From: Thermogutta terrifontis | GTDB taxonomy: Bacteria; Planctomycetota; Planctomycetia; Pirellulales; Thermoguttaceae | Length of the DNA: 64,000 nt | Assembly (NCBI RefSeq): GCF_002277955.1 | Contig: NZ_CP018477.1 | Span: 4,299,206 to 4,363,205 of the forward strand | Reading direction: 5' to 3' | In this document: positions 28,188 to 30,941 of the stretch, piece after piece | Position numbering within the stretch: the first letter of the stretch is position 1 | How the letters are laid out: every line of letters starts with the position of its first letter | Translations under genes and position numbers: made by a program | The notes under the pieces: generated by a model | What the model was told of the DNA's origin: nothing | The model's database searches: none | The model's input: only the letters and a program-made list of their open reading frames with translations

Positions 28188-29036
28188 TCAGTTGTCGGAT
28201 GAAGACTTTTCGCGCACCGGTAGCTGATATTCCCAGTAATATTTATCCCATGGTATGAAGGGGCTGTTGTAACCCAAAAGCCGTGGTGGTCCCGCGACTT
28301 GCCATTTATCCCTGTGATGCCCCAGCCACTCTTCCACGCGCTGCTGGGCAAGCTGGAGGGCCTGATTCGATCGGGGACCTCTGATTCCGGTACTCACGAA
28401 CCAACCGCCTGGCAAATCGCGGACCTCCACGGTACCGTCCTCACCGGGAGTGCCCTGATCTGGCCGTTCGTAAAAAAAAGCCATGAGGACCGGCCGCTGG
28501 CCGTTTTCTTCGAGTGTCATCTCAACTGGTGCCGTCATGGCCACATTATTCTTTTTGATGTGAGCAAAAAGTCGCCAGAATGCCGTGCCGTTGTCGCGGG
28601 TAACCGCCGCCCGATAGCCGGGATATCGCTTGACCTCCACCTCACCGACAGGGGTGCAGGGTGGAAATCCAACTGGCAAATCGGCCTCGGCTATTGGACG
28701 GAATCGCAGGTCCTCAACAATGTTTTTCAGTGCAGTAAGGACTTCGGACTGATCACCGCCGGCGGCCATTCGGCTTTTCATGTCCCGCAATCGCGCGGAG
28801 ATATACGATTCCGACGGCAAACAAGCAACAGCGCGGTCGATGGCTTCAGAGAGAAGCGACTCTTGAACTTTTGGTTCTTTATTCTGCAGAGGTTTCGCCA
28901 ATTCATCAGCGGCTCGCCTGTAGTCGCCGGACAGCGGATGTTCAGGAAACTCCGCACCACGCCCCACTGCACCGGCGAGCATCAATGCAATAATCGCAAT
29001 GACAACGGATAACATCCCGATCATGAGAGTCTTCAT
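28188..29036 (-). CDS. Exported SOUL heme-binding family protein
   Basis: 282 residues. A signal peptide or membrane anchor (MIGMLSVVIAIIALMLAGAVG) and a short helical region precede the SOUL/HBP domain: VEVKRYPGYRAAVT, NNVAMTAPVEM, FFYERPD, then PWDKYYWEYQLPV at the end. SOUL proteins bind heme or act in heme transfer in other organisms; binding is not shown here. ATG 29036 follows AAGGTGA. A hairpin upstream separates it from the fasciclin gene. Confidence 0.85.
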   Translation of the reverse strand: MKTLMIGMLSVVIAIIALMLAGAVGRGAEFPEHPLSGDYRRAADELAKPLQNKEPKVQESLLSEAIDRAVACLPSESYISARLRDMKSRMAAGGDQSEVLTALKNIVEDLRFRPIAEADLPVGFPPCTPVGEVEVKRYPGYRAAVTRDNGTAFWRLFAHIKKNNVAMTAPVEMTLEENGQRPVLMAFFYERPDQGTPGEDGTVEVRDLPGGWFVSTGIRGPRSNQALQLAQQRVEEWLGHHRDKWQVAGPPRLLGYNSPFIPWDKYYWEYQLPVREKSSSDN

Positions 29037-29107
29037 ATATCAGTCACCTTTTCTAATGGCCAAGGTTTTTGTGTCTACCAGGAGGCCACTGCTCGAGTAA
29101 ACGATAG

Positions 29108-29144
29108 TCCGGAGAGTCGGGCGGTTGCAGGCCCGATCTCTCCG
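29108..29144 (-). terminator. Hairpin after the fasciclin gene
   Basis: Stem CCGGAGAGTCGGGC/GCCCGATCTCTCCGG with one bulge and an 8-base loop, no clear T run. Probably marks the end of the fasciclin transcript. Confidence 0.5.
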
Positions 29145-29199
29145 GATCCGCGGCACGATCGTGGACAGGAGTCAGTCCACCATGAGGGAGGCCTGAGTT

Positions 29200-29736
29200 T
29201 CAGTTCGTATTTCCGCAGCTCGAAGCGTGCGACTCAGACTTCTCCGGCGGCAGAATAACGGCATCAATGACATGGATGATGCCGTTGGACGCTCGAATGT
29301 CGGTCTTCACAACCTTGGCCTGGTTGACCTTCACGCCGGCGTCAGTCACGGTGATCTTGATTGGCGAGCCCTGCACCGTCTTCAGGCTCTTGCTGGCCAC
29401 CACCTTCTCCGCCGGATATTCACCGGCCACCACATGGTAGGTCAGCACCGCCGTCAACTTCGCCTTGTCCTTCAGAAGCGCTTCCAGAGTTCCCTCGGGC
29501 AACTTGGCAAACGCCTCATCCGTCGGGGCAAACACGGTAAAGGGCCCCTTGCCTTTCAAAGTCTCCACCAGACCAGCAGCCTGGAGCGCCTTGGCGAGGG
29601 TCTTAAAGGACCCGGCCTCAACCGCCACATCCACAATGTCCTTTTTGGCTGCCTCATCAGCCCGATTCATCTGAGCCAGACCGAACCCTCCAAGCAGCAC
29701 GGCAATCGCGACGACACCAACCGGAAACCGACGCAT
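29200..29736 (-). CDS. Exported fasciclin (FAS1) domain protein
   Basis: 178 residues. The signal peptide ([19 protein letters not shown]) is followed by one FAS1 domain: [37 protein letters not shown], then the YHVV motif and the closing [17 protein letters not shown] 29736 follows AAGGAGG at seven bases. FAS1 domains mediate adhesion. The gene is divergent from a CarH/MerR-like regulator, and its leader holds three copies of an 8-base motif that also occurs at the regulator promoter, so regulation by that protein is likely (inference). Confidence 0.9.
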
Positions 29737-29775
29737 CACAAAACCTCCTTACACTGAAGGGACCTACGGACCTTT

Positions 29776-29798
29776 CAGGCACGCCCCTTGCGTGCCTG
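29776..29798 (-). promoter_or_regulatory. Hairpin in the fasciclin leader
   Basis: CAGGCACG/CGTGCCTG, 8-base perfect stem with a 7-base loop, between the operator boxes and the ribosome site of the fasciclin gene. It may stabilise the mRNA. Confidence 0.45.
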
Positions 29799-29799
29799 C

Positions 29800-29829
29800 T
29801 GAACGAATTTATTTCGTTCATTTCGTTCA
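29800..29829 (-). promoter_or_regulatory. Predicted operator of the fasciclin gene
   Basis: Three copies of one 8-mer: TGAACGAA at 29800-29807 (inverted) and TTCGTTCA at 29813-29820 and 29822-29829. A TATAAA -10-like box on the minus strand sits at 29837-29842, so the boxes fall at or just after the expected transcription start, a typical repressor position. Confidence 0.6.
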
Positions 29830-29986
29830 AACGTAGTTTATACAGGTCAAACTGTCCGGGCAAGGGGTCAAGAGCAAAAATTTTCCGCCGCCACGGAATT
29901 GCCGCGAGAACACCGGAAAAATCGCAGATCCCTTCAAAAGAAAGGAATAAAAGGGTAGGATTGAGCAGGAGAGGTGGTTTGCTAAG

Positions 29987-30013
29987 TGAACCGTAAATCG
30001 TTCAAAGCGTTCA
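29987..30013 (+). promoter_or_regulatory. Predicted operator of the CarH-like regulator gene
   Basis: TGAAC at 29987-29991 and CGTTCA at 29999-30004 and 30008-30013, the last ending one base before the start ATG. The two direct copies have the same 9-base period as in the fasciclin operator. No ribosome-binding site is visible, so the transcript may be leaderless or the operator may cover the start region. Confidence 0.6.
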
Positions 30014-30014
30014 C

Positions 30015-30941
30015 ATGACTGCTTTGTTGACCCCAAAACAACTCGCCCTCGCCGCCGGTGTCAGCGAGTCCACCGTGAAACGCTGGTGTGACCGCGGCCT
30101 GCTGCCCGTCGCCCGCACGCCCGGAGGACACCGCCGCATTCAGCTCCATGAAGCCCTGCGGGTTTTAAAGGAGCTGAATCTCCCTCTGCGCCACCCAGAG
30201 GCGCTTGGACTGCCTGCCTTTTCCGGCCAAGGGCAAAGGGTTCTCGAAAAGGCCAAGGACGAACTACTTCAGGCCTTAAAAAACGCCCAGGCCGACCGTT
30301 GCCGGATCATCCTTCACGAGCTTCGCTGTGTGGGCCTTTCTTTTGCCGAAATTGGCGACCATGTCATCGCCCCGGCCTTCGAGCAGATCGGCCAAGAATG
30401 GGAATGCGGAAAGCTGCAAATCTACCAGGAGCGGGTAGCGTGCTGTATTCTTTCGGAAGTGCTCGCCGAAATGGTGTCAACTCTTCCCGAGGAAACTATG
30501 CATCAGCCACTGGCGATTGGAGCCACTCTGAGTCAGGACCATTACGTCCTGGCCTCCCAACTGGTTCAGTTAGTCTTGAGGGAAAAGGGATGGCGCGCCA
30601 GATTCCTGGGGCCCAATCTCCCTGCCCCTACACTCCGCCAGGCCATCGCCGATTGGCATCCCAGGTTATTCTGGCTGAGTATTTCTCACATCGCATCGCA
30701 GCAGGAAGTTATCGACGCCTGCCAGAATTTGTTCGATTACTGTCGCCAATCTGATTGCCTTTTTGTGATTGGCGGCCGATCGATCGACACGTCTCTGCGC
30801 CAACAGCTCCGGTATTCGGCGTATTGTCCCGACCTGACCCACCTGGCCATGCTTTTGGATACGCTCCCACCACCCGTGCAGACCACCGAAGGGGTCACTG
30901 GCAGATCAACAGAGCGGCCGTCCGACGCGCCTTCCGGCTAA
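30015..30941 (+). CDS. MerR/CarH-like regulator with B12-binding-type domain
   Basis: 308 residues. An N-terminal MerR winged-helix (PKQLALAAGVSESTVKRWCDRGLLPVARTPGGHRRI) is followed by a helical bundle with W129-x9-E139-R140, and a cobalamin-binding-like Rossmann domain with DH176YVLAS, LSISH and VIGGRS. CarH/LitR proteins are adenosylcobalamin-dependent light-responsive repressors; their bundle motif is Wx9EH, here Wx9ER. The candidate lower-ligand His (H176) is kept, though the usual GExHxxG context is SQDHxxLA. It probably represses itself and the divergent fasciclin gene; effector use is uncertain. Confidence 0.82.
   Translation: MTALLTPKQLALAAGVSESTVKRWCDRGLLPVARTPGGHRRIQLHEALRVLKELNLPLRHPEALGLPAFSGQGQRVLEKAKDELLQALKNAQADRCRIILHELRCVGLSFAEIGDHVIAPAFEQIGQEWECGKLQIYQERVACCILSEVLAEMVSTLPEETMHQPLAIGATLSQDHYVLASQLVQLVLREKGWRARFLGPNLPAPTLRQAIADWHPRLFWLSISHIASQQEVIDACQNLFDYCRQSDCLFVIGGRSIDTSLRQQLRYSAYCPDLTHLAMLLDTLPPPVQTTEGVTGRSTERPSDAPSG

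Follow-up and report, generated by a model that had tools for sequence, protein, structure and literature searches.

CarH is characterized by 11-bp operator repeats (nnnnTnnACAn) and by the motifs RxWERRY, Wx9EH and D/ExHx2G/P (PMC9304148, excerpts). CtMerR from Chloracidobacterium thermophilum was proposed to be a light-responsive regulator with a DNA-binding domain unlike that of CarH; its cobalamin domain binds adenosylcobalamin (AdoCbl) and responds to light (PMC11796333, excerpts). The class II LitR proteins of Pseudomonas (PplR/PmlR2) are CarH-like, are thought to be B12-free and repress light-inducible genes (PMC9758184, excerpts). The SCHIC domain of AppA holds heme instead of cobalamin, its ligand His284 lying two residues off the B12 ligand (PMC9144470, excerpts). 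As for the DNA side, BldC protomers bind head-to-tail to 9-bp direct repeats, AATTXXXX(C), in which Arg30 reads the C-G pair (PMC5859096, excerpts). Photo-oxidative stress induces a fasciclin gene in R. sphaeroides, and cyclopropane-synthesis-like genes, folE2 and Beta-Ig-H3/fasciclin stand together in a Rhodobacter table (PMC7074977, excerpts). A fasciclin of Azospirillum is controlled by RpoE-ChrR (as cited in excerpts of PMC10949492), and in Vibrio cholerae the blue-light response involves ChrR together with a MerR-like protein whose gene is predicted to share an operon with that of a photolyase (PMC5241685, excerpts).

Here, we analysed a locus of Thermogutta terrifontis contained in a stretch of 64,000 nucleotides (hereafter the window) of a single-contig genome of 4.81 Mb, counting motifs both in the window and genome-wide. 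A sequence-only reading had proposed that a CarH-like regulator represses itself and a divergent fasciclin gene through shared CGTTCA boxes, perhaps in response to light or B12. The literature searched, thin in subscription journals, contained no report joining CarH-like proteins with fasciclin, none describing the operator and no DNA target for this family of cobalamin-fold regulators.

Organization of the regulator-fasciclin locus

The relevant features of the window are as follows.

28188..29036, minus strand: SOUL heme-binding-like protein (Pfam PF04832, E 5.6e-11; synteny)
29200..29736, minus strand: fasciclin-domain protein (Pfam PF02469, E 1.8e-43; open reading frame; start ATG 29736 or GTG 29739)
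29776..29798, minus strand: perfect hairpin in the fasciclin leader, CAGGCACGC-AAGGG-GCGTGCCTG, 9-bp arms and 5-base loop (from the sequence)
29800..29807, minus strand: inverted box TGAACGAA, 8-bp dyad with 29813-29820
29811..29829, plus strand: candidate operator at the fasciclin gene, ATTTCGTTC at 29811-29819 and ATTTCGTTC at 29820-29828, then A
29995..30013, plus strand: candidate operator at the regulator gene, AAATCGTTC at 29995-30003 and AAAGCGTTC at 30004-30012, then A; fits the 72-site consensus given below
30015..30941, plus strand: regulator, 308 aa (Pfam, NCBIfam, AlphaFold model, PDB matches)

The SOUL gene lies downstream of the fasciclin gene on the same strand. A direct read of the intergenic DNA agrees with what had been described: CGTTCA-n3-CGTTCA is present at both promoters with the same 9-base period. 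On the fasciclin side the boxes are exact 8-mers, TGAACGAA once (29800-29807) and TTCGTTCA twice (29813-29820 and 29822-29829). On the regulator side, TGAAC occupies 29987-29991 and CGTTCA occupies 29999-30004 and 30008-30013, the last box being separated by a single base from the ATG at 30015. Both operators have the same orientation, though the fasciclin gene runs the opposite way.

The inverted TGAAC box had been read as a further part of the arrangement. It is indeed found at both promoters, but it precedes the first direct box by 10 bp at the fasciclin gene versus 7 bp at the regulator gene. Among the relatives' loci that we read, TGAACGAA occurs only at the fasciclin promoter of two Thermogutta genomes, and the second of these genomes lacks an inverted TGAAC at its regulator promoter; the box gives no signal in the 72-site profile either. 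On the basis of these loci and the profile, we reject the inverted box as a generally occurring element of the operator. The dyad at 29800-29820 also appeared on the list of a terminator scan; a terminator was rejected, the stem having only 3 G-C pairs and the regulator promoters of relatives showing the nonamers without the dyad. A hairpin similar to that of the fasciclin leader is present in the second Thermogutta genome (L033/L048).

The sequence-only reading had placed the fasciclin boxes at the expected transcription start; when 29000-30100 was scanned for a simple sigma-70 consensus, no promoter-like site was returned. No Shine-Dalgarno-like stretch lies close to the regulator ATG, the nearest G-rich run being about 40 nt upstream. 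With just one base between the operator and the start codon, the transcript would start at about the operator if the mRNA is leaderless.

Conservation of the tandem repeats

The exact pair CGTTCA-N3-CGTTCA occurs exactly twice in the window, with no additional match at one mismatch, and twice in the whole 4.81-Mb genome, both times at the regulator/fasciclin locus. The reversed-letter control also yields two matches genome-wide, and when one mismatch is tolerated, two matches turn up in 7 of 100 shuffles of the window; consequently, the rarity of the motif alone is weak evidence. What lifts the boxes above chance, judged by comparison of sequences, is their conservation upstream of regulator relatives, and this is the decisive evidence.

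Full-length relatives of the regulator are found in 5 other genomes among 101 of the family to which the window belongs (41-94% identity; L033-L037), the closest named relative at the locus being a Thermogutta MAG (L048) with a regulator 94% identical. In 4 of the 5, the regulator is divergent from a fasciclin gene and nonamer repeats are present at both intergenic ends:

L033: fasciclin end CGTTCATTTCGTTCA; regulator end CGTTCAAATCGTTCA
L034: fasciclin end CGTTCAAATCGTTCA; regulator end CGACCAAAGCGGTCA
L035: fasciclin end CTTTCAAATCGTTCA; regulator end CGACCAAATCGTTCA
L037: fasciclin end CGTTCAACTCGTTCA; regulator end CGATCAAAACGACCA

An equivalent of the fasciclin-end site is present in L033/L048, L034/L049 and L037/L079, and a one-mismatch form in L035/L051. 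In the fifth relative, L036 (7100-7910; same contig as L062), the divergently oriented gene encodes an alpha-L-fucosidase and AAATCGTCCAAAACGTCCA lies in the interval; the alpha-L-fucosidase would be another output of the same switch.

The fasciclin genes themselves provided a control, using 600-nt promoter regions of 26 family rows, of which 18 had a readable open reading frame. The degenerate motif CGNYCA-N3-CGNYCA is found in 5/5 fasciclin promoter regions that lie beside a regulator (exact motif in 4/5), a count in which the 600-nt region takes in the regulator-end site and, in G066, only the regulator end fits the strict pattern. It is found in 0/13 rows for fasciclin promoter regions without a regulator; these rows represent 12 distinct regions, L209 and L213 being parts of one open frame in G070. 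Of the 8 of 26 rows that lacked a readable frame, L195, L199 and L210 come from closer relatives and the other five are more distant (34-36% identity). Two same-genus genomes, G024 (97% complete) and G050 (87%), have no match to the regulator at E 0.001, nor any to the fasciclin gene at E 1e-20; both assemblies are incomplete, and the double absence looks as if the pair had been gained or lost together.

A more distant set was obtained by scanning named genomes with a six-sequence alignment; 80 of 101 confirmed loci were kept, selected by the peptide patterns [VIL]KRWCDRG and [IVF][AS]P..IG. Judged by their record titles, these 80 named loci comprise 75 from Planctomycetes, 4 from Acidobacteriota (L078, L083 Sulfidibacter corallicola, L096, L102 Acanthopleuribacter pedis) and 1 from a Myxococcales MAG (L088). 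Within 650 nt upstream of the regulator, the exact motif is present in 32/80 (mean 0 and maximum 0 over 100 dinucleotide shuffles) and the degenerate motif in 47/80 (mean 0.5 and maximum 3 over 100 shuffles); by this strict pattern the degenerate motif is missing from 33/80. Sites in these 51.9 kb of upstream DNA are strongly oriented, 71 following the direction of the regulator gene and 6 opposing it, and the remaining 711 kb of the 80 loci hold 39 sites on both strands together. The reversed-letter control gives 1 in the upstreams and 13 in the remaining DNA. At least two forward sites are present in 19/80 loci. Two operator copies are seen upstream in L083, L096 and L102, and one in L078 and L088.

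Both the gap and the period are specific. On the gene strand, the exact motif with its gap of 3 is present in 23 of 78 non-redundant 300-nt upstreams; any other gap from 0 to 15 is seen in at most 3 of them, and the reversed-letter control in none. CGNYC repeats have a period of 9 in 59/80 loci, each other period from 6 to 20 being found in 6-20 loci. Retention of a site while its flanks diverge is a usual mark of function. When upstreams were grouped such that no blastn match of at least 60 nt at E 1e-3 joined two groups, the 80 upstreams fell into 38 groups, and the operator is present in 23 of these mutually unmatched groups, in its exact form in 14.

The consensus over 72 sites from 47 loci is AAATCGTTC-AAATCGTTC-A, with flanking information of at most 0.35 bits. 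In this profile the CG, pyrimidine, C and A columns were preset by the search pattern and the A-tract columns were free; the latter reach 0.9-1.2 bits ahead of the first CG. In a complementary search with the A-tract and CG preset and positions 7-9 left free, C occupies position 9 in 49/50 and 50/50 matches (37 loci). The distance from the beginning of a site to the regulator start is either 14-60 nt or, toward the divergent gene, 96-617 nt.

Conservation in orthologous intergenic regions, on which the sequence-only reading had made its proposal depend, was thus found in near relatives, in distant upstreams and in the fasciclin comparison. The proposal that regulator and divergent fasciclin gene have operators in common is strongly supported by these sequence comparisons. 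Self-regulation, which had likewise been proposed, gains from the conservation of operators at the regulator promoters of relatives, and the regulator most likely autoregulates.

Search for further targets in the host genome

A genome-wide scan for the motif had also been suggested. It returned the exact pair only at the locus described above; further targets were sought with looser patterns. CGNYCA-N3-CGNYCA gives 140 matches versus 81 for its reversed-letter control and was discarded as too noisy for finding a regulon. WWNCGNYCAWWNCGNYCA gives 6 matches versus 3 for the control; two are the regulator/fasciclin locus. Three others were rejected as targets, L216 and L219 lying inside genes according to the open reading frame tables and L218 inside a 1005-aa open frame, and the remaining match, L217, lies among small unassigned open reading frames. 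A photolyase-like gene of the same genome (G000:C1:1627038-1627430; L214) scores below the Pfam cut-off. No operator was found upstream of it, and a CGTTCAACTCGATCA match lies only within its coding frame. These scans yield no additional convincing target in the host, and the regulon seems, from motif searches, to be limited to the regulator/fasciclin locus.

Fold and DNA-binding domain of the regulator

Pfam detects in the regulator an HTH_17/MerR domain (residues ~4-43) and a B12-binding_2 four-helix bundle (82-151), and a B12-binding Rossmann domain at residues 167-263 scores 28 bits against a cut-off of 32.1. The architecture of CarH, i.e., helix-turn-helix (HTH), four-helix bundle and Rossmann domain, is present by both Pfam and the model. 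The NCBIfam models for HTH_BldC (E 1.2e-11, 44.3 bits, cut-off 77) and CarH (56.7 bits, cut-off 400) both score below their cut-offs on the protein. When the HTH alone was compared with PDB chains at E 0.01, the only matches were 8jbs (CtMerR) and two BldC entries, the BldC chains at E 8.8e-06 and 1e-05. An AlphaFold model built from a 26-sequence alignment has a mean pLDDT of 87.7. Its residues ~69-289 find their best structural match in CtMerR 8jbs (Z 26.6, rmsd 2.1, 219 aligned), followed by a photocobilin (Z 24.7, rmsd 2.2, 207 aligned), AppA SCHIC (4heh; Z 20.2, rmsd 2.8, 203 aligned) and CarH (5c8e; Z 19.6, rmsd 3.0, 201 aligned).

The recognition helix reads KRWCDRG, and the RxWERRY motif of CarH is absent. 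By chain lengths and alignment, Arg30 of BldC would correspond to Arg23 of the regulator, whose equivalent is found in 110/110 relatives; that the recognition helix does not vary is in part an effect of selection, because the pattern used to find loci contained the Arg. The AAATCGTTC repeats fit the BldC-type 9-bp repeat AATTXXXX(C), with an A/T tract of AAAT rather than AATT. Judging by these matches the DNA-binding domain appears BldC-like and, by analogy, the regulator most likely binds its operator head-to-tail. The assignment to CarH made by the sequence-only reading is consequently not sustained: the HTH appears BldC-like, the repeats are of 9 bp and not 11 bp, and the CarH motifs are lacking.

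Residues of the cobalamin pocket

Pocket residues were counted in an alignment of 110 proteins (the window, the 80 named loci and 29 further loci, some of which may represent the same organism twice); ten B12 proteins with a different family membership were left out of these counts. The position of the axial histidine is Tyr in 103, Phe in 3, Thr in 2, Ser in 1 and His in 1. At the final position of Wx9EH, 100 proteins have Arg, 9 have His and 1 has Ala; all nine that keep EH belong to the lower-scoring loci (the additional 29). The W of Wx9E is kept in 108/110 and the E in 110/110, a GG is found in 110/110, and a His one residue ahead of the Tyr occurs in only 12/110. The window protein itself has Wx9ER, DxYx2A and SxS instead of SxT/V, and lacks the CarH motifs Wx9EH and D/ExHx2G/P.

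The host genome encodes a cobalamin adenosyltransferase, so AdoCbl could be available. Judging by the pocket residues, B12 sensing nonetheless appears doubtful, and the regulator would not sense AdoCbl in the fashion of CarH. Given the cobalamin-domain fold and a conserved change in the pocket, the Tyr is probably used for something.

Gene neighborhoods and the light question

Neighbors were labelled from naive open reading frame calls and from families of scanned representatives only, and the following are raw counts, not set against a background rate. Among the 80 loci, neighbors include sigma-70-family proteins (45), TIGR01777-like oxidoreductases (32), FAD amine-oxidase-like proteins (21), CMAS (18), DUF1365 (16), photolyase (10), GTP cyclohydrolase I (5) and fatty-acid desaturase (4). 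At least one of sigma factor, FAD oxidase, CMAS, DUF1365, photolyase and fasciclin is present in 73/80 loci (raw count), and at least one of FAD oxidase, CMAS, DUF1365 and photolyase in 31/80 (raw count). Sigma-factor genes are common in planctomycetes, and one neighbor cluster (17) has a sigma-54 activator as its representative. The fasciclin arrangement is a minority one, found in 11/80 loci (12 with the window). By type of neighbor, the motif is present in 8/11 loci with fasciclin, 29/44 with sigma factor, 7/13 with FAD oxidase, DUF1365 or CMAS and 3/12 of the others. All four Acidobacteriota loci have FAD oxidase and CMAS neighbors.

Light is plausible because the neighbor genes of relatives resemble sets of photo-oxidative-stress genes, and by this analogy a light or photo-oxidative link is suggested. 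Of the two signals originally considered, light is thus favored by the neighborhoods and by the fasciclin reports cited above, but B12 is disfavored by the replacement of both histidines in nearly all relatives.

The fasciclin genes also keep other company. Among 21 fasciclin matches in the family (at least 57% identity), 15 have, no more than 5 kb away, a gene that resembles the regulator's B12 part. Ten of these 15 lack the regulator; the protein could be read in 8, all of which (8/8) keep Wx9EH and the axial His, and one of them, compared with the PDB, has a photocobilin as its best match. Fasciclin, and SOUL, which is present in 7 of 12 fasciclin-bearing family stretches fetched, thus repeatedly adjoins cobalamin-fold proteins of either type. 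Loci with fasciclin near an intact-His B12 protein and without the regulator are L038-L041 and L043-L046 (e.g., L041:4697-6701, L043:2450-4124, L040:7555-9272); these B12 proteins have ~140 N-terminal residues without a Pfam match, and several of the loci also carry SOUL. An ECF-type sigma gene lies alongside in L040, L041 and L043, an arrangement in which a B12 light sensor possibly acts on the sigma factor.

Proposed mechanism and alternatives

We propose that the regulator family joins a BldC-like winged HTH to a CarH-like cobalamin-domain fold. Two protomers would bind head-to-tail to AAATCGTTC-AAATCGTTC-A at two promoters, that of the regulator gene and that of the divergent gene, with the repeats pointing the same way at both, and occupancy of the start regions would most likely repress both. 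Light, or a photo-oxidative signal linked to reactive oxygen, would then free the DNA and lift repression, inducing protective functions: fasciclin and probably SOUL in the host, and a sigma factor, photolyase or lipid-modifying enzymes in relatives. Taken as a whole, we regard this account as likely.

The alternatives concern either the signal or the DNA partner. The regulator could act through these same operators in response to something other than light, such as heme, a porphyrin or general oxidative stress, sensed directly or via a partner. The fold matches the heme-binding AppA SCHIC (4heh, Z 20.2; PMC9144470, excerpts), a SOUL heme-binding-like gene follows fasciclin, and class II LitR operates without B12, through a LOV partner (PMC9758184, excerpts). 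However, the heme ligand of AppA is His284, and here a His precedes the Tyr in only 12/110 relatives; photolyase neighbors (10/80 loci) also point to light. We hold a non-light signal to be less probable than light, yet a contender to be taken seriously. A true AdoCbl photoreceptor similar to CarH or CtMerR, binding AdoCbl base-on or facing the Tyr and released from the repeats by light, strikes us as unlikely. The best fold match of the regulator, CtMerR 8jbs, does bind AdoCbl and respond to light (PMC11796333, excerpts), the W (108/110) and E (110/110) of Wx9E are retained and an adenosyltransferase gene is present. Against this, the axial His and the His of EH, both among the key AdoCbl-binding residues of CarH (PMC11796333, excerpts), are replaced in nearly all 110 relatives.

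On the DNA side, a different regulator might bind the repeats, the adjacent gene being merely a neighbor, given that binding by the adjacent regulator is something we infer. Yet the motif tracks the regulator (5/5 versus 0/13 fasciclin rows), in 23/38 unmatched groups and across three phyla, and its 9-bp period and consensus fit the BldC-like HTH of the regulator; we see very little chance of another binder. Sigma-factor promoter elements, e.g., ECF -35/-10 boxes in place of a repressor operator, are more improbable still. Motifs resembling AAC and CGT do occur in ECF promoters, and a sigma-70-family neighbor is present in 45/80 loci. However, near-identical nonamers 9 bp apart contrast with two different elements 16-19 bp apart, the sites point the same way at the two divergently arranged promoters (71 forward, 6 reverse), and the fasciclin loci of G038, G027 and G005, which adjoin an ECF-type sigma gene and lack the regulator, have no motif. 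We discard the sigma-element reading because of the spacing and the orientation.

Returning to repression by the regulator itself, a broader extension can be put forward tentatively, as a conjecture we would not bet on. The regulator would represent a large uncharacterised family of Planctomycetes and Acidobacteriota in which a sensor altered from His to Tyr and from EH to ER reads another ligand (heme, porphyrin, bilin or base-on cobalamin), represses through BldC-type AAATCGTTC repeats and governs a photo-oxidative response, with fasciclin and SOUL as its output in Thermogutta. A conserved and specific DNA target is now proposed for these uncharacterised cobalamin-fold regulators, and planctomycete fasciclin and SOUL genes are placed in a light or photo-oxidative context, which hints that the switch may help to protect against damage by light.

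Comparison with known systems

The regulator shares its HTH, four-helix bundle and Rossmann domain with CarH and the class I LitR proteins of Thermus, Myxococcus and Bacillus, which also use direct-repeat operators as described in source excerpts. CarH operators are nevertheless built of 11-bp repeats, against the 9-bp period observed here, and the nnnnTnnACAn pattern is absent. The period matches BldC of Streptomyces, which has a related HTH and recognizes direct repeats of 9 bp that contain an A/T tract and carry C at position 9; according to the excerpts, BldC is a protein of 68 residues that lacks an effector domain and controls development, whereas the regulator has 308 aa and a cobalamin-domain fold. 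BldC-type binding of 9-bp repeats and CarH-type sensing, which have been studied apart, are thus joined here.

On the sensing side, class II LitR is described in its source excerpts as reduced, within the B12 module, to the four-helix half and as working with a short LOV partner, whereas the regulator is modelled with the Rossmann half as well. AppA SCHIC and the photocobilins have the cobalamin-domain fold in common with the regulator (Z 20.2 and 24.7), but AppA binds heme through a His and has a BLUF domain, and photocobilins, as excerpted, retain EH, bind B12 in the His-on form and have a globin-like domain. The conserved Tyr and Arg that here stand in place of two B12 histidines raise the question of what a cobalamin fold can sense. 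The closest described relative is CtMerR (8jbs/8jbt), the best PDB match by sequence, over HTH and cobalamin domain, and, for the cobalamin domain, which is what the crystal contains, by fold as well. CtMerR keeps EH and DLH, whereas the regulator family mostly has ER and DxY; we predict that the nonamer repeat is a target for CtMerR too.
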